Origin: Fimbriimonadaceae bacterium
Lineage (GTDB): Bacteria; Armatimonadota; Fimbriimonadia; Fimbriimonadales; Fimbriimonadaceae
NCBI GenBank assembly: GCA_024710805.1
Contig: JANJUB010000098.1
Location: forward strand, 1-54,874
DNA: 54,874 bases
Reading direction: 5' to 3'
The position numbers and the translations under genes are program-made. The notes under the pieces are model-generated. The model searched no databases and was not told the DNA's origin. It was given only the letters and a program-made list of their open reading frames with translations. Positions 43,745 to 53,736 of this stretch are shown one piece after another (position 1 is the stretch's first letter; every line of letters starts with the position of its first letter).

Positions 43745-43756
43745 CTTCGCGACGGT

Positions 43757-43822
43757 CGCGTGTAGGGTGTTGAATGTGGCCGGTTCGGCATTCAACATCC
43801 TACATCTCACATTCGATGAAGT
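43757..43822. repeat. Intergenic repeat family 2, copy G
   Basis: GTTGAATG ... CATTCAAC form a perfect 8-bp stem, extended by 7-bp units (CATTCAA, CATCCTA, CATCTCA). It lies between the GH109 stop and the convergent giant secreted protein stop, where a bidirectional terminator would be expected. Confidence 0.65.
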
Positions 43823-43827
43823 GACCC

Positions 43828-46800
43828 TCACGGTTTCGGCGCCACAAACACGACCCAGATTCCCGGCGGGTAGATCGCGACGCCGCGCGTCGGCGGACCG
43901 ACGGTCAGGTGGTGGTGTTTCTTCTGCGCCGGCTTATCGGTCTCGGTGTACTCCATCCTATAGTCCGCTTCGAATCCCGTAACCGCTTTGGTCGGGCGCA
44001 GGCTGAACTCGAACCACACGTTGCCCTGCGGATCAGTCTCCCGTTTCACGAAAGGCACGGCCGCGGCAAGGATGTCGATGCTCATCATGTTCATCGACTT
44101 GCTCGGCTTAGGGGCACCCATGAGCGCCTCGACCGTCGAACGTGGCTTCCAGTTGGGATCAGGGGTGAAGTCGCCCGTATCCTTCGACTCGAAGGTTGCA
44201 CGAACATCGACGACCTGGCGAGACTTCGCGTCGTACCGACCCCGAACCGTGAGGGTGCGCTGCGCGGAACTCACGGTCGTACCTGTTCGCCCCGTCGAGG
44301 TCTTCGGAAGCGGACCGACCTTGACTTCGATCGTGAACTCGGCTCCCGACCAAGTCACGACCGGTCGATCCATCGGCTTCTGATAGTCCTTGGCCACGGA
44401 CACCACGCCGTCTAAGTGGTTGGGATATCCCCACGTGGCCACCTTGAGTTGGCTGGAGAACCCGCTCTGCTGGTTCGGGTTGTCGTCGGCCTTGACTTCG
44501 GCGACCCCGGCGAGGTGCACGATGACCTGACTCGTCTTCTGAAGTTCCTTCAGCAGGCTGTCGGCCGGAGCTCCCGCCCACTGGATAGGCGACGTGAGCG
44601 GAACCGAACCCTCCTTTGCCACGAGTTCGACGCAGGCGATGCCAAGGCTTTCGAACATCGCACCGGCGATGGTCGGGAGAACGACTTCGGTAGTCGCGGG
44701 CGAAATGACGATTGCCGTGCGCGAACCGCCCTGCCCTGAGAGCTGACCAGGTGATTGCTCGGGCCTGAACCGCAGTTCTTGAACGAGCTTGACCTCGCCG
44801 CCTTGGAACCGGCCGTAGATGTGGTAACCCCAAAGCGCATCGCCTGGAGGCACTCCGTTGAGCGTCGGCAGACTCCACTTGAGATGGAAGCCGTCTGAGG
44901 CGGACGTCGATTCGAACGTCGCCGGAGGGGAAAGTCGATAGACATAGAGCGGATTCGACGCACCCTCGGCTTTCTTGACGCTGCTCACAAGAACGGGGAT
45001 CAGCATGTCGCCAGCGTCCATCGTCGCCGGAAGGGCGGCGACTCCGCGTTCGACGGTCACTTGATCTCGCGCGCGTTCCGCGCTTGTCACGGCCTGTCCT
45101 GTGGATGCCGATGGCTTAAGCACCATCAGTTCCTCCTCGGCGTTTGGGACACGGCGTCTGACCACGATCGGCGAGGGCGGGGTCGATGCGGCGATCTTGA
45201 CCATCGCCGGAGTCACCGACAAAGCAGGTGACATGGGCAAGTCGATCTTGCCCGCCGCCACCGTGTTACGATTGACCGAGAGCGCCAACTCGGTAAGCAA
45301 GGCCGGCCAACCGGTCGAGACCTTGCCCCGGCCATCTTCGGAGTCGACTTCCTTATCGGGACTGTCTTCGCGGTTGGTCAGCGCGCGGACGTAACCTCGG
45401 AACATCTGCTCCATCAGCGCGGGCTGCATGGTCCCCGAAGCGAGCGACCTTAGGTCTTCGACGCCGTGCTGGTGATAGACGAACTTCGGAAACGACCAGA
45501 GGACATAGCCCCGGCGCTCGGGCGTACTGAACCCCTCTCCTTGTCCTGATCCCTTAAGCCCGTTCTGCAGAACCGGCCCGGCGACTTTCCATCCGTTGAG
45601 CGTCATCCCGTCGTCGGCCCCAGGCCATACGATTGACTCGACGGCCACGGCGATCGCCTCTTCCGAGCCCAGGAACTGTTCTTTGAACCCGTTGTGCTTG
45701 CTTACCGCGTGGAAGTACTCGTGAGCGAGGGTCGCCTTGACGACGCTCGGACTCTCCTTGGCATCGGTCAGCATCTCTCCGTTAACCATCAGGAAGGTGC
45801 CTTCGAACTCACCCGCATTCTTCTCACCGGTTCGAAGTTTGCCGAGTTCGTTGGTGACGAGCACCGGAGTCGTCGGGGGCGGGTTGAACTGGCTTCGCTC
45901 GTACCAGCGCCTCGTCGTGGCGAGTTCGTTGGCGAGGTTGACGACCGCAGTCGGAACCTTGTGTCTACCGATATCCTCGAGGCGCACACTCTCCCCGGCG
46001 GGAAGCTCTAACGTGTAGGTGCCGCCCTGGCCGACGGAACCCCACTGATCGGTGTCTTTCACCCACGTGAGAACCCGATTTGTCTTCTTGTTGACCAGCA
46101 CGACCGCCTGGCTCTTGGCGGCAACTTGATCGGGTTTCCAGTACACATTGAAGCCTTCCACCGGGATTGGCCCGGTGAAACCCCGCTTCATCAACATGTC
46201 GTACTCGGCTCCCCCAGCGAACCAGCCGACCGCACCGAAGACCGCGATCACCACAACGATGGGAGTCGAGACGGTCAACGCAGTGCCGATGACCGCCTTG
46301 CTGCCGAAGTAGAGCAGCAACGTTCCGGCACTGGAGTAAATCGTAGCCCCGATCGTCTGATGCTGCTTCTTGTTCATCCCGAACCACCCCTGGTTCGAGA
46401 AGTGGCTGGTCTTGGCCGTGAGGGTCCTTGTTGCAGGATTGAACTGGGCGGGTTGCACCTGCCAGAGATCGTCCGTCACTTGGCCCACCGCGACAAGGGT
46501 TGTGGGATCGACGCCGTCGGGGATCTTGTACGTGAGCGTGGCTGGCTTCAAGAGGAGCTTTCCTCCGGCTTCGACCTCGAGGAACCGACCATACGTTCCC
46601 GAGTTGATTTGGGTCACCTTGACGGTTTGGGGTTCGACAAGGGCGCCTGACGGGATCGACACTTCGAAGTCCCCCGATTGGCTGGCGATCTTGCCGCCTT
46701 CGGGGCCGATCTTCGCTTCCCCGACCAAAGTCGCGGGCGATGTGGTTGCTCGTTGCCCCGCGAGAACCTCGATCTGCTGGGCGGCGCGTTCGGCGAGGAG

Positions 46801-47628
46801 ACTCCCTTCGGTCGCCGCCCATGCGGCCTTGACTTGCTCGAAGTTGATCTTGGCGTCGAAGGTGGTCGATCGACTGTAGCCCCGGCCGGCGGCGCTATAC
46901 GAGAGCACACCGATCGGCAACCCTGGGTTCGCCGCTTGCTGGGCTTCGCGAAGCCGCGTCGCCGCCGCCAGCGTGTCGTCGACGTTCTGCGCGGTGCTGA
47001 ACAGCACGTACAGTCGTCCGCCGGTCTGCGCATTGACGCCTTCGAGCGCTTTCGTGATCCGCGCCTTCAGGGCGGCCGTAACGGTGCCGGTTTCGTCCAC
47101 GACCAGATCCGGCGTCGCCACCATCGGCGCCACCCCGACCACGCGCACTGTTCCCACCATCGCGGGGTGGATGCGATAGTTCGCGCCCCATGAGTCATCG
47201 CCGGGAAAGTCGCCGATCCAAAGCGGGTCGCGGCTGAGCGGTGCTTTGATCGTGCCGACGGTTGACTGTCCGCCAACGGTCAGCGTGACGCGTTCACCCG
47301 TGCGCGACACGACGATGATCTCGTCTGCGTTGCGGAGGGCTTGAGTCGATGTGAGGATGGTCCACCCGGGCTGCCAAACCTGGAACGAGACCTTGCGATC
47401 TGCGTTGATGGTGAGGCTGTAGGAGCCGGTTGGCGCGGCGTTGATGCCGACCGAGTCGAGCACGACCCCGGGCTTCTGACAGTTGACGACCACCTCGATC
47501 CGGAAATCTCCCGCGGGAGGTTTGACCGCAAGTCGGTGGCCATCGTCGGGAGATTGCAGATTCACCTGCTGACCGAGTTGGACGTCTCCCTGAGTGAGGA
47601 AGGCCAGCATGAGGGTGACGATGGCCAT
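43828..47628 (-). CDS. 1266-residue secreted multidomain protein with HExxH motif and ZU5-like domain
   Basis: Starts at ATG 47628 (GACAAT 6 nt upstream); the longer frame to 47829 reads through tRNA-Pro and is rejected. Order: short hydrophobic start (1-12), LamG-like beta domain (about 20-165, ending [13 protein letters not shown]), TPM-like alpha/beta domain (about 170-290), ZU5-like domain (about 305-412, [11 protein letters not shown] ... [11 protein letters not shown]), a long hydrophobic stretch with Gly/Ala (about 425-472), a region holding [13 protein letters not shown] with zinc motif HEYFH at 636-640 and a possible third ligand near 656, then about 600 residues of Fn3/beta domains. 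It is likely a membrane-anchored or secreted metallopeptidase-like protein; no complete known architecture matches. Confidence 0.7.
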
Positions 47629-47715
47629 ACATGAATTGTCGCCGATCGAGGGTCCCTCCGCGCGTCCCCATTTTGGGGGACGGGTTTCGGTTTCGGGTAT
47701 CTTGTGGATTCGTGT

Positions 47716-47792
47716 CGGGGCGTGGCGCAGTTTGGTAGCGCGCTTCCATGGGGTGGAAGAGGTCGCACGTTCGAATCGTGTCGCCCCGACCA
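47716..47792 (+). tRNA. tRNA-Pro (anticodon GGG)
   Basis: 77 nt. Acceptor CGGGGCG/CGCCCCG, D arm GCGC-AGTTTGGTA-GCGC, anticodon stem CTTCC/GGAAG around ATGGGGT (anticodon GGG), T arm GCACG-TTCGAAT-CGTGT (the last pair is a G-T wobble) and an encoded CCA. Confidence 0.97.
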
Positions 47793-47894
47793 GGTTATTG
47801 AACCTGAACAGCTCTCTCGCTTTATTCACCCAAACCCAGCTCGTTCGGGCTTAGCGAGACCCACGAGTACTCAAAAGACGGGCTTGGATAGGCA

Positions 47895-48389: not shown

Positions 48390-49319
48390 TCACCCGCATT
48401 CTTGCCGTGTGTTTTTCGAATGTGGACAAGTCCTGACGTTCACGAGAGTAGCCCGCAGGCGCGTGAAAAACACGCGGGCCGTCAAAGGGTCTAAAGCGCC
48501 GCCGGCCGCTTTGGCGCAGCGTTCCGAGAGCCGCGCATCTCCGATCCGCTCGACCCACTCCCCGAAGGCATCGGTCGGCCCGGTCCACGCAAGGTCATCG
48601 ACCTGCGAGAAGGCGGGAAAATCCGTTCGGAGCGTGGCCAGATCCTTGAACAACAGGGCGAGTTCCTTTCGTTCGCCCAGCACCTCGGAAGGAAACTCCT
48701 CGATCGGGCCATGACGGAGCAGCGCCTTCGCCGCGCCGACCGCGCCGAAGCCGGGAATGCCGGGATAGCCATCCGCCTTATCGCCGACGAGGGCCAGGTA
48801 GTCGGGGATCAGAGCCGGAGGGACGCCGAACTTCTCCTTCACGCCCGCCTCGTCCCGGATGTTCTTGCTGCGCCGTTCGACCTGCACCACCCGATCGCCC
48901 CGAACGCACTGGGCCAGGTCCTTGTCCGGGGTCCAGATGCAGATTTTGTCTACTTGCGGGTCTTGCTCGGCTAGGAACGCGGCGGAGGCGAGGGCGTCGT
49001 CGGCTTCCAACTCCTCCATCGGCCACACCTTGACGCCCATCGCGGCAAGGGCATCTTCCAAGGGATGAAACTGGTCGGTCAGGTTCGGCTCCATGCCGGT
49101 CGCCCGCTTGTACCCGGCCCACAGGTCGTTGCGGAACGACTCGATCACGTGATCCGTGGCTACCCCGAAGTGCGTGCCGCCTTGCTCCACCATCTGGAGG
49201 ATCGAGTGGAGGACCCCGCCGACGGCGGCAAGAGGCTTGTCGTCGCCCTTCGAGAAGCTTCGCAGGCCATAGAACTGGCGAAACAGCTCGTAGGTGCCAT
49301 CGATCAGGTGGACGATCAT
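48390..49319 (-). CDS. 5'-3' exonuclease of the FEN/PolI-N family
   Basis: 309 residues with the flap-endonuclease fold found at the N-terminus of DNA polymerase I. Acidic metal ligands are visible in HLIDGTYELFRQF, MEELEADDALASAAF, IWTPDKDLAQCV and ALVGDKADGYPGIPGFGAVGAAK; the last block carries the H3TH DNA-binding loop. No polymerase domain follows, so it is a stand-alone nuclease like ExoIX, possibly for Okazaki flap or RNA primer removal. It starts 15 nt after the DUF2330 stop. Confidence 0.87.
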   Translation of the reverse strand: MIVHLIDGTYELFRQFYGLRSFSKGDDKPLAAVGGVLHSILQMVEQGGTHFGVATDHVIESFRNDLWAGYKRATGMEPNLTDQFHPLEDALAAMGVKVWPMEELEADDALASAAFLAEQDPQVDKICIWTPDKDLAQCVRGDRVVQVERRSKNIRDEAGVKEKFGVPPALIPDYLALVGDKADGYPGIPGFGAVGAAKALLRHGPIEEFPSEVLGERKELALLFKDLATLRTDFPAFSQVDDLAWTGPTDAFGEWVERIGDARLSERCAKAAGGALDPLTARVFFTRLRATLVNVRTCPHSKNTRQECG

Positions 49320-49334
49320 CCAGTCCAGTATGCG

Positions 49335-50300
49335 TTACGCTCGGCGTCTCCGCCACCAGACCACCCCGCCGACTACGACGGCGATGACCGCAACGTCGAT
49401 CGCGATGCGGGCCGGGGTCCACACCCAGTCCGAGGCTCCCGCATAGGTGAAGTAGAGGTCATCGGAAGTTCGGCGCGGGAATTCATAGTCGGTGTAGTGG
49501 GCAACTTCCCACCCTTCCGAGAGGCCCTTGATTTCGATGCCGAGTCCGGCCTTCAGATCGCGCAAAGCGTCGTTGGTGAGGCGCTCTCGCCAGCGAGCGT
49601 TTAACTTGTGATCGGTGTTGGGAACCTCGTTCCGATAGGAACCGTTCGAGACGAAGTACAGGAGCAGCCCGGCCCCTTTGTTTTCATCGATGTTGTCGTC
49701 GGGCACGAAGTAAGGGTTGAAGGGCCTCTCCGCTTTGAAGGACATCCGCACGGGGATGGTCTTCGCCTCGTCATCCGCACCGGCTCGGATCTTGAATGCT
49801 GTCAGGAACCAGTCCTTGCCGATATAGAATGCCGTCCATTCCTCGATCGACTTGGAGGTCACGTAGTTGTTGGCACGCATCCACTTTGCCAACGCCTGCG
49901 CATCGCTCGCACGTAGCGTCGTCGCTCGGTAGGCCCCGACGTCCTTCACTTGGACGACGTCGACCCCATCTGAGGCCGTCGCCGCGTCCATCTCTCCCGC
50001 CGAGCACGAGCACCCTATCGACGCCGGTCTGGGCCGCAGACTGGCCAGCGCGACATAGATTGCGGGATCGACCGTGCCGAGGTCAGGCACCGTCGGCGTC
50101 GGCGCAATAAAGCCGATGTCATCAGCGTCCGTGGCGAAGCGCGCTTGCCGAATGAAGTGTTGGGTCTTCGTATCCGCGTCCCAGATAATCACGTTCGCTT
50201 GGCCCTGAAAGACAACTCCTTTGCCGTCGAACGATACACCGCAACACGGCCATGCCGCGATCGGTAGCGAAGCCACAAGCGCAACTCCGAGCAACTTCAT
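49335..50300 (-). CDS. DUF2330 exported membrane-anchored protein
   Basis: 321 residues from the ATG at 50300, supported by TATACT 7 nt upstream; the frame is open further but reads non-coding sequence. Signal peptide MKLLGVALVASLPIAAWPCC, then the DUF2330 body (NVIIWDADTKTQHFIRQARF, ADDIGFIAPTPTVPDL, PVRMSFKAERPFNPYF) and one C-terminal helix (IAIDVAVIAVVVGGVVWW) followed by RRRR. It would be anchored with the domain outside. Function of the family is unknown. It is the first gene of an operon with the FEN nuclease and the zinc-ribbon protein. Confidence 0.82.
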   Translation of the reverse strand: MKLLGVALVASLPIAAWPCCGVSFDGKGVVFQGQANVIIWDADTKTQHFIRQARFATDADDIGFIAPTPTVPDLGTVDPAIYVALASLRPRPASIGCSCSAGEMDAATASDGVDVVQVKDVGAYRATTLRASDAQALAKWMRANNYVTSKSIEEWTAFYIGKDWFLTAFKIRAGADDEAKTIPVRMSFKAERPFNPYFVPDDNIDENKGAGLLLYFVSNGSYRNEVPNTDHKLNARWRERLTNDALRDLKAGLGIEIKGLSEGWEVAHYTDYEFPRRTSDDLYFTYAGASDWVWTPARIAIDVAVIAVVVGGVVWWRRRRA

Positions 50301-50307
50301 GCCTATA

Positions 50308-50313
50308 AGTATA
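50308..50313 (-). promoter_or_regulatory. -10 box of a leaderless promoter for the DUF2330 operon
   Basis: TATACT on the minus strand ends 7 nt before the ATG at 50300. Confidence 0.55.
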
Positions 50314-50358
50314 GGACGGTCTTTGGCGTAGTGCCCAAGCTCGCCACATCGACTCGCC

Positions 50359-50432: not shown

Positions 50433-50861
50433 ATGGATCGCATGACTAAACACCCGCCTGATCAGACGCTGAGAGAGCTGCTGAGCCCCTCATTTCTCCG
50501 GCACATTCCCGAGAGCGAGAACATCGCCCAGGAACTGGTGGCCGAGTTCGTGGAGGGCCATCCCGAAGTGCACGCCACGGACACCGAGGCGTTGGCGCGC
50601 CTGATCTGGCTGGCCCTCGCGACCGCGCTCGATCATCTCGACGACGCTCAGCAGTTCGCCGCGCGGTGCCGCGAGCTTGGCCGCTCCTTCGTGGGCCTCG
50701 GGCTACGCCCCCGACACTTTCCGGCTATGGCCCAACTCCTCCTGCGGCACTTAGCGCTTGAAGAGACCGAGGCCGATGCGTGGAAGAGGTTCGTGCTTCA
50801 GATCGAGCGGGCCATGGTTAGCGGATCCAAGCAAACAGGGCCTGGGCCTGCTCTTTCGTAA
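50433..50861 (+). CDS. Globin-like protein lacking the proximal histidine
   Basis: 142 all-helical residues. The stretch LDHLDDAQQFAARCRELGRSFVGLGLRPRHFPAMAQLLL follows the E-F helix pattern of flavohaemoglobin-type globins (LG-x-x-H-x-x-x-x-x-x-P-x-x-Y), and EADAWKRFVLQIERAM matches the last helix. Where the haem-binding proximal His is expected the sequence has Phe or Ser, so haem may not bind; it could be a haem-free sensor domain. The 3' end overlaps the convergent SARP gene by 44 bp. The start is ATG 50433 or 50442. The family call is tentative. Confidence 0.45.
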   Translation: MDRMTKHPPDQTLRELLSPSFLRHIPESENIAQELVAEFVEGHPEVHATDTEALARLIWLALATALDHLDDAQQFAARCRELGRSFVGLGLRPRHFPAMAQLLLRHLALEETEADAWKRFVLQIERAMVSGSKQTGPGPALS

Positions 50862-53736
50862 CGGGTAGTTCGTGGGTGCACACTCCGCCGAAATGGGCGG
50901 CGGCGGCATCGCGGTGATCGATTTCGGACTCAACGACGATCAGACCTAGCTCACGTTCTAGGTCTCGGGCAAATGCGATGACCTGCCGTGCGCGGTCGGC
51001 ATCGCCGTCGTGAAAAAGAACCTCGGCCAGCAGGGTCAGCGTACAGCAAAGGCCACCATAGTTGTCGTCCAGCACCCACCGTCGTCCCGCCTCGCGAACG
51101 GACCACCGGGATTCGTCCCACTTTCCCTGCAGGATCAAGGCTCGACTCAAGCAGTGCAGCTGATCCGCTTCTTGGTAAGGGCTGCCGATGGCTTCCCAGA
51201 TTCTTAGGGACTCACGCAGTAACGCTTCGGCTTCCTCTGGTCGTCCGTCGGCGGTGGCGATTCGACCCTCGGTTTCGTACAAGAAGGCCGCGGCAACGGG
51301 ATCTCTCAGCCCGCGCAGCGATTCCTTCGAGCGTTCGATCGCCTCCAATGCCTCTCGCCTGCGATCCGTGAACCAAAGCGTGGCTCCGAGATACGTGCCC
51401 AGCGAGGGGAGTTCGGTTTCGGCGCCGGTAGCCTGCAGTTTCTCAAAGGCCGCAGAGAGGCACTCGAGTGCCTCATCGGCGCGTCGCTTGTAGTTGACGA
51501 TGACTCCCAAGAGCCGAAGTGCCCGCCCGGTGAGATAGGTGTCGCCGGCGTCCTTCGCAAGTTCGAGCGCCCGTCTGGCCAAGTCCTCGCTGGATTCGAA
51601 CTCGCGCCGGAAAGCAAGCTGGGCTTCGCTGAAGGTCAGTAAGGCCTCCCATGTCGCTGAGCCCTTGACCCCACGTGCGCGCTGAAGGGGCTCTCGGGCA
51701 CGCTCCTCTTGGTGGCACGCGAAACACAGGTGGGCAAGGGTCAGTTCGAGCTCGATCGCTTGGTCCGGGGACGTTTCTTGCCCCCGAACGCGATTTGCCT
51801 CCAAAAACTCCAGCAGGGCCAGGCTGCGACCACGGCTCATCTCCAAGCGCGCGACCTTCTTCGCGCTCGGCCAGGCACGCTCGGGCTCATGGTCGATGGC
51901 CCAGCGCCAGGCGAACAGAATGTTGTCCGCCTCCGACTCGACGAGGTCGATCACTCGGCGGGGCAGGGGCTTCCACGGAGCGATGTCATGCTGGGCGAGC
52001 AGTTCGAGGACGGTGTGCACCGCCGTCCGCTCCAGTGCCTCCCGGGCATCCTCGCCCTGGCGCCTTTGGACGTAGTTACGAACGGGCACCAACATGCGGA
52101 CTCGCACCAGCCCTGAATGATCTTCCATCGCAAGCAGGGCAAGGTCGAGCAACGACTCGATCAGGTCCAAGTACGGCTCGTCGGCCAGCGCCAAGCCGCA
52201 CAGGTCCATGCCCATGCCACCGGGGTACGCCGAGATCCGGTCTACCGTCCGGAGCTGCGCCTCCGACAGGCTGTCAAAGCTCGATACGAGGGCCGACTCA
52301 AGTGATCGGTGGCGATCAGGGAGATCGTGTGCCGACGAGCGAGCGAGCGCATGGTCGAGTTGTCGGAGCAGGTCCTGCGGGGAGAGCAGCCTCAAACGGG
52401 CCGAGGCCAACCTAAGCGCGAGCGGGTAGCCGTCGAGCCGGTGCGCGATCTGCAGCAGCACATGGGCATCCACGTCGGAAATCTCCGCGTTCGGACGGTG
52501 CTGGTGATAGGCGTTTCTCAGGAACTCCGCTCCTGCGACGCGCGGGTCGAGGGGGCCGACCGGGATCAGCTGTTCACCTTGGACCCGCGACGGGATCACC
52601 GACGTGATGAGAATTCGCAAGGTGGGCGCGAGCGAACGCAGATGGGAGATTCCGTCGGCCGCATTCGGCAGGACGCTTTCAAGGTTGTCGATAACAAGCA
52701 CGGTGGGCTCTTGATCGACGAGAACCGCCAAGAACTTGATCGGGTCGGCCTCGCCGGGCGGGTCGCTGCCCAACTGGGCCAGAACTTCGCGCGCCCATAG
52801 GCCAGGTTCCGCAACCTCTACCATCGAAGTGAAGGCAACCCGCCCCCCCTCAGATGCGAGTCGCTGGGCCACCTCGACGGCGAGCCGAGTCTTGCCGATA
52901 CCGCCCGGACCGACCAGAGTGACGACCCGGGTTGTGCTTGTGCGGAGTTGGTCGACCACCCGTGCGACGAGTTCTTCGCGACCGTAAATGGGCTCAGCCG
53001 ATACCGGCAGCGTCGTTGACCAATCGGCGTCGGCCGTCGCGTCCCGCGTTCGCGCCGCAAGATCGCGGGCCAGGCGATCGCTCACGTCTGGCGTGTCGAC
53101 CCCAAGCTGTTCCTTCATCTTGCGGCGATAGTCTTGGAACTCGGCTACCGCCGCAGCAAGACTGCCGAGCTGGGCATGGACTTCGACGGCGAGCTTTCGT
53201 AAATCCTCATTCAGCGGATGTCGCGCGATCATCTGCTGGAGCAGTCCCTGCACCCGGTCGGCCTCGCCGGCCTGAACGGCTCGCGTGATCGCGGTTACGC
53301 CTGCGTTGACCTGGAGTTGGTCGGCGTGGCGCCGTTGCCCGATGACCCACGGGTCCTCCCAGCCGGGAAGAAAGGGATCGAGGATCAGCGACGGTTCAAG
53401 CGTGCGCGACGAGGAATGCTCCAAAACATCGAGGTCCGTGGCCAAACGCGAACGGTCTACCCAGACTTCCGTGGGCGACGAGCCGATAAGATCGGCTTGG
53501 TCACCGAGGGCACGCTTGAGCCGGTGGATCTCTTGTCGAAGTCGCAAGCGCGTCGCGTCATAGTAGTCTTCCGGCCAAAGCTGCTCGGCGAGGTGCTCTC
53601 GGGGCATCTTTCCAGACCGCGACAAGCTCAACAGGACGAGGAGCTTGGCGGCACGCACCGTGCCGAACGCCTCGATCGACTGGTCGTCGGCTTCGAGGCG
53701 AATACTTCCAAACAGGCGAAGTCGACACGTGTTCAC
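50818..53736 (-). CDS. AfsR/SARP-type transcriptional regulator (wHTH-BTAD-STAND ATPase-TPR)
   Basis: 972 residues from a GTG preceded by AGGA. Order: OmpR-like winged helix (about 1-95, RLRLFGSIRLEADD ... LRLRQEIHRLKRALG), bacterial transcriptional activation domain with TPRs (about 100-235), NB-ARC/STAND ATPase with P-loop GPGGIGKT (276-283) and Walker B TVLVIDN (345-351), then a long TPR superhelix (about 590-960). Streptomyces relatives (AfsR, large SARPs) switch on secondary metabolism; in other phyla they are orphan signal-gated activators. The STAND domain suggests ATP-dependent oligomerisation after a ligand binds the TPRs. It follows queF by 50 nt. Confidence 0.92.
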   Translation of the reverse strand: MNTCRLRLFGSIRLEADDQSIEAFGTVRAAKLLVLLSLSRSGKMPREHLAEQLWPEDYYDATRLRLRQEIHRLKRALGDQADLIGSSPTEVWVDRSRLATDLDVLEHSSSRTLEPSLILDPFLPGWEDPWVIGQRRHADQLQVNAGVTAITRAVQAGEADRVQGLLQQMIARHPLNEDLRKLAVEVHAQLGSLAAAVAEFQDYRRKMKEQLGVDTPDVSDRLARDLAARTRDATADADWSTTLPVSAEPIYGREELVARVVDQLRTSTTRVVTLVGPGGIGKTRLAVEVAQRLASEGGRVAFTSMVEVAEPGLWAREVLAQLGSDPPGEADPIKFLAVLVDQEPTVLVIDNLESVLPNAADGISHLRSLAPTLRILITSVIPSRVQGEQLIPVGPLDPRVAGAEFLRNAYHQHRPNAEISDVDAHVLLQIAHRLDGYPLALRLASARLRLLSPQDLLRQLDHALARSSAHDLPDRHRSLESALVSSFDSLSEAQLRTVDRISAYPGGMGMDLCGLALADEPYLDLIESLLDLALLAMEDHSGLVRVRMLVPVRNYVQRRQGEDAREALERTAVHTVLELLAQHDIAPWKPLPRRVIDLVESEADNILFAWRWAIDHEPERAWPSAKKVARLEMSRGRSLALLEFLEANRVRGQETSPDQAIELELTLAHLCFACHQEERAREPLQRARGVKGSATWEALLTFSEAQLAFRREFESSEDLARRALELAKDAGDTYLTGRALRLLGVIVNYKRRADEALECLSAAFEKLQATGAETELPSLGTYLGATLWFTDRRREALEAIERSKESLRGLRDPVAAAFLYETEGRIATADGRPEEAEALLRESLRIWEAIGSPYQEADQLHCLSRALILQGKWDESRWSVREAGRRWVLDDNYGGLCCTLTLLAEVLFHDGDADRARQVIAFARDLERELGLIVVESEIDHRDAAAAHFGGVCTHELPVTKEQAQALFAWIR

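Follow-up and report, generated by a model that had tools for sequence, protein, structure and literature searches.

A predicted exported zinc peptidase with LamG, TPM-like and ZU5-like domains in a Fimbriimonadaceae bacterium

Introduction

What would a bacterial protein do in which LamG-, TPM- and ZU5-like domains precede an HExxH motif, and might its ZU5 domain cut its own chain? The question is raised by a 1266-residue reading frame in the window, by which we mean the whole stretch of 54,874 nucleotides of Fimbriimonadaceae bacterium DNA analysed here (assembly GCA_024710805.1, contig JANJUB010000098.1). A preliminary description of this DNA took the product for a secreted enzyme of novel architecture, possibly toxin-like or adhesive. 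Large exported bacterial proteins that join ZU5 with adhesion modules and enzyme domains appear in the part of Zhang et al. 2012 used here (PMC3482391). In the window protein the component domains are already known; their combination is unusual. Sequence comparison and structure models suggest that it is probably an exported, active zinc peptidase, either at the surface or secreted, a judgement that leaves self-cleavage aside.

The gene, its relatives and its domain order

The features of the gene are as follows, with the basis of each assignment in brackets.

43828..47628, minus strand: whole coding sequence, 1266 aa plus stop (stop-free translation, homology, dN/dS)
47575..47628, minus strand: putative short signal peptide, residues 1-18 (by eye)
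47119..47571, minus strand: LamG-like domain, residues ~20-170 (AF2 model, Foldseek, profile matches)
46753..47106, minus strand: TPM-like domain, residues ~175-292 (AF2 model, profile, hhalign)
46375..46722, minus strand: ZU5-like domain, residues ~303-418 (Foldseek, AF2 model, alignment)
46396..46404, minus strand: HFS tripeptide, residues 409-411, candidate HF/S self-cleavage site (model and alignment)
46213..46356, minus strand: hydrophobic Gly-rich stretch, residues 425-472, possible helical hairpin (alignment; model pLDDT mostly <50)
45994..46176, minus strand: small beta-rich segment, residues ~485-545 (model, low to moderate confidence)
45364..45975, minus strand: predicted gluzincin-type peptidase domain, residues ~552-755 (alignment, model, Foldseek, profile)
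45709..45723, minus strand: predicted HEYFH zinc-binding motif, residues 636-640 (conserved in relatives)
45658..45663, minus strand: Glu656-Glu657, candidate third zinc ligand (alignment)
43831..45363, minus strand: C-terminal region, residues 756-1266, resembling fibronectin III by eye, followed by a fast-evolving tail (no Pfam match)

The frame is intact. Its start at the ATG at 47628 is borne out by L019, a same-genus contig with which homology begins at the identical Met; a longer alternative from the GTG at 47829 would cross tRNA-Pro (47716-47792). With a dN/dS of ~0.2 against this congener, and with conservation in same-genus and same-family genomes, the gene is by sequence comparison real, rare, maintained and under purifying selection. 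The database record of L019 (JADZEW010000030.1) is titled Methanoregulaceae archaeon; the contig looks bacterial, and the title is probably wrong. By eye, the window protein has a putative signal peptide that is short and does not open with basic residues; clearer ones are seen in L020, L021, L022 and L028. The earlier view of an exported enzyme is supported. Pfam on the whole protein gave only chance matches (AAA_30, PrgI), a PDB sequence search with the single protein gave none, and a structure search against viral proteins gave none with E <0.001.

The ZU5-to-peptidase part occurs in six copies in five genomes among 291 genomes of the phylum. Besides the window genome, the carriers are the congener at 72% identity, one genome of the same family at 48% and two more distant genomes at ~27-32%. 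Both same-genus species have one copy per genome; a genome-contig search returned nothing beyond the same-genus contig. One of the six copies, the second in genome G211 (L023:7385-11290), is interrupted by an in-frame TGA and is either a decayed gene or a sequencing error. Among more distant LamG proteins (L024 and L033), L024 has the order LamG, weak TPM, weak ZU5 and HELFH, matching the window protein. The LamG-TPM-ZU5-HExxH order read earlier from the sequence holds, by the LamG and ZU5 folds, a weak TPM profile and the conserved HExxH. Novelty can be granted to it in part: few genomes of the phylum share the exact order, but ZU5 combined with adhesion modules and enzymes had been described in 2012, as the available part of PMC3482391 shows.

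The LamG and TPM-like front end

Residues 1-300 were modelled by AF2 with a mean pLDDT of 85. On this model the first domain has the LamG jelly-roll fold, with agrin, neurexin and laminin as best Foldseek matches, and a profile search with the region points the same way (agrin 6.9e-7, laminin 4.2e-5). The TPM-like assignment of residues ~175-292 is weak but consistent. A profile match to the Arabidopsis TPM protein At1g54780 has an E of 0.034, and hhalign against true TPMs from the same order gives 87%, while 13.7 bits (E 0.066) falls short of the 22.1-bit gathering score of Pfam PF04536. By eye, the domain keeps the opening VVDExG and has lost the later Asp/Glu motif of true TPMs; because that motif is not kept, we judge an active TPM phosphatase unlikely. 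The front end varies among relatives, L020 beginning at the TPM-like domain without LamG and L022 having F5/8 type C in place of LamG. LamG-TPM pairs are also seen with neither ZU5 nor peptidase behind them but another C-terminal domain (L028:7169-8563 and L025:2735-4816), and the module is shared within the phylum.

The peptidase domain

The HEYFH motif has an expectation of ~0.012 by composition alone. HExxH is present in 6/6 close family copies and in two distant LamG proteins, which bears out the earlier metallopeptidase-like reading of the motif; among close relatives it takes the forms HEYFH, HETLH, HEYWH, HELFH and HEYYH, with both His and the Glu invariant down to ~27% identity. The Glu-bearing helix that follows is conserved as well, Glu656 being invariant and the position of Glu657 being occupied by Asp in one relative (L022). 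Within the diverged part of the gene, the peptidase core is one of the better-kept stretches. In an alignment with other HExxH proteins of the phylum E657 falls into the usual W..EG.A register, whereas invariance favours E656 instead as the third ligand. In the AF2 model a helix, a strand and two more helices follow one another as in a gluzincin; HEYFH lies in one helix and E656/657 in the helix after it, and the ligand was judged by this order. We regard HEYFH as probably a genuine gluzincin-type site, which on sequence and model would bind zinc.

Comparison with known families places the domain more loosely. In a Foldseek search the peptidase region matched the M1 peptidase ERAP1 (1.5e-5, low TM-score); the match takes in the peptidase together with the beta region ahead of it, and there is no sequence match. 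M1 aminopeptidases have a spacing of 18 to the third ligand, whereas the window protein has 15-16 residues to its candidate and no GAMEN motif was seen in it. The NCBIfam MXAN_6640 model (NF045524) matched weakly in 4/5 proteins tested (window protein 4.5e-4, L022 7.7e-5, L024 1.3e-3, L033 6.1e-4); the HExxH region and the following Glu helix align with it, the model being matched in part only. The window protein is not a member of this family, since its 20 bits lie far under the 140-bit cut-off, which is reached in 0/61 related genomes; at most it shares a broad clan with the putative metalloprotease MXAN_6640, of which no mention by name was found in the literature searched. Pfam gave no peptidase match on the window protein, and a PDB search with a ZU5-peptidase profile returned one neutral metalloprotease at chance level.

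The ZU5 domain, its HFS tripeptide and the segments that follow

For residues 300-821 AF2 gave a model of uneven quality: the mean pLDDT is 63, but most of the ZU5 part scores 70-89 and the peptidase core comes close to 80. In alignment A2 the second half of L023, which forms one row, is probably out of place and may have reduced model confidence. As modelled, residues ~303-418 form a ZU5 beta-sandwich, matched by Foldseek with a probability of 1.00 to the ZU5 domains of ankyrin, ZO-1 and UNC5b (target TM 0.5-0.6, to single ZU5 chains); the BAI3 GAIN domain stands lower among the matches. Pfam ZU5 (PF00791) has no match on the window protein or anywhere in the window genome, and matches the relative L024 weakly (E 0.052). 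A plasmid search gave two weak matches to the ZU5 region, in Deinococcus and Thermus.

In the model, HFS 409-411 sits in a short turn directly preceding the last ZU5 strand, which is the placement of the HFS/SFS-type tripeptide in self-cleaving ZU5/GAIN-type domains. In human PIDD the self-cut falls at HF/S, immediately behind the ZU5 domains; in CARD8 and NLRP1 it falls at SF/S, just ahead of the last strand (PMC3210808). The link between ZU5 and autoproteolysis drawn in the preliminary description is thus stronger than first stated, because of this tripeptide. Phe and Ser are kept in 6/6 family copies, the residue before them being His in 4/6 and Cys and Ser in the other two; by eye, the matching place reads HLS in L033 and HLC in L024. 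The window protein resembles PIDD, CARD8 and NLRP1 in its ZU5 fold and in the cleavage-type tripeptide before the last strand; unlike them, it would be exported rather than cytosolic, shows no UPA or death domain and lacks the His and Glu of the NLRP1 triad. That triad includes the upstream His H1186 and Glu E1195 (PMC9700037). Within the domain of the window protein, no His other than His409 precedes Ser411, and none of the residues within 45 positions is a Glu; in three relatives a His stands 28-29 residues ahead of the Ser. In 2012 self-processing by ZU5 was put forward as a trait general to bacterial surface enzymes, in the part of PMC3482391 used here, and the literature consulted on it yielded no experimental test in bacteria.

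Past the ZU5 domain, the hydrophobic Gly-rich stretch at ~425-472 that had been noted earlier is indeed present, and holds its position in the six close copies. Membrane insertion by this stretch, as first suggested, may be conceivable, but model confidence there is very low. The long beta tail at the C-terminal end is only inferred from sequence.

Divergence from the congener and gene surroundings

Aligned with the congener L019, the neighbouring oxidoreductase gene and positions 47051-47800 show a DNA identity of 0.87-0.95. Across 43751-47050, which covers the protein from residue ~190 onward, identity is 0.53-0.81; on the 43.7 kb side the boundary coincides with the stop codon. Synonymous divergence is 0.1-0.4 in LamG, mostly 1.1-2.4 past residue ~250 and 0.43-0.51 in three neighbour genes. 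The gene is thus, on these alignments, a divergence mosaic, with the LamG end at genome background and the rest ~3x more diverged at synonymous sites. The simplest reading from the two genomes compared is that, through recombination, one species acquired most of the gene as a diverged allele. We do not take the mosaic for an effector swap, because the diverged part keeps the same domains.

The surrounding genes encode an erythromycin-esterase-like protein, a DUF2071 protein, a GH109-like oxidoreductase, a zinc-ribbon protein, a 5'-3' exonuclease and a DUF2330 protein. The DUF2330 gene region (49301-50350) aligns poorly with the congener, with both flanks collinear, and a large BTAD/STAND-type regulator with TPR repeats lies at 50818-53736. 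A match over the full length of the bacterial small-subunit rRNA model agrees with a bacterial origin.

Proposed mechanism and alternative readings

We infer export, zinc binding, substrate cleavage, self-cleavage and anchoring by the hydrophobic stretch, and suggest the following scheme. The protein would leave the cell by Sec-type export to become surface-bound or secreted, and its LamG domain would bind an extracellular ligand, with the TPM-like domain as a non-catalytic spacer or binding fold. The gluzincin domain, with HEYFH and Glu656/657, would cut an extracellular protein, and the hydrophobic stretch 425-472 may serve as an anchor. The central ZU5 domain would be a structural hub or a self-cutter at Phe410|Ser411; after such a cut, LamG-TPM-ZU5 would remain non-covalently attached to the other half, which carries the hydrophobic stretch and the peptidase, on the pattern of PIDD and NLRP1. 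The protein would thus be like the ZU5 proteins of Zhang et al. 2012 in being large and exported and in joining ZU5, an adhesion module and an enzyme domain. The enzymes named in the part of that paper available here (PMC3482391) are glycohydrolases, lipases and phosphodiesterases and, in toxins, other peptidases; the LamG-TPM-ZU5-gluzincin order does not appear in that part, and the window protein has no RHS, SpvB or propeller, unlike the systems described there.

The same domains could also belong to a catalytically dead adhesin that retains the gluzincin fold as a scaffold only, and the Asp at the second Glu position in L022 would suit such a protein. Yet the His, Glu and His of HExxH are invariant among relatives at ~27% identity, and the motif's immediate surroundings are kept better than the sequence flanking them; we therefore hold loss of activity to be improbable. 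Still more so, to the point of being very hard to credit, is a toxin-like or polymorphic effector, in which the LamG end is constant and the remainder a swapped effector part freed by ZU5. The mosaic, with a constant N-terminal end and a diverged remainder, resembles what such a system would leave, and a role for ZU5 in the processing of bacterial polymorphic toxins has been proposed (PMC3482391, in the part used here). However, the diverged part has the same domains end to end, which speaks for an allele and not a different effector; no immunity gene, RHS or SpvB repeats, partner or dedicated secretion cluster was seen in the neighbourhood; and the gene is single-copy in two same-genus species. 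The toxin-like label given at first did not survive these ordinary surroundings: we reject it because there is no partner gene and the diverged part retains the architecture.

Within the preferred reading of an exported zinc peptidase, what the ZU5 domain does can be weighed separately. By analogy with PIDD, a cut of its own chain at Phe410|Ser411 is a tentative proposal that we would not yet lean on, because the NLRP1-type His and Glu are absent and, in the phylum, stand-alone ZU5-like domains mostly have FS preceded by Gly or Ser and not by His. Since GFS or SFS prevails in those domains, FS may be structural, and we rather favour an exported zinc peptidase whose ZU5 never cuts itself, with Phe410 and Ser411 conserved only for packing of the beta-sandwich. 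Against it stand the exact PIDD/Nup98 tripeptide HFS in 4/6 family copies and the GPS-like pattern of the related LamG proteins L024 (HLC) and L033 (HLS). The fullest version, an extracellular two-chain peptidase in which a PIDD-like self-cut at HF/S holds the zinc peptidase on a LamG sensor half, strikes us as unlikely. If it were true, removal of the LamG half would activate or free the enzyme, and the protein would be a bacterial surface counterpart of the NLRP1/adhesion-GPCR design. Either way, the protein offers a small test case for bacterial ZU5 self-cleavage: it has the exact HFS, the activity of the adjoining enzyme could depend on the cut, and sister domains provide natural variants at the site (GFS, SFS, CFS and HLS).
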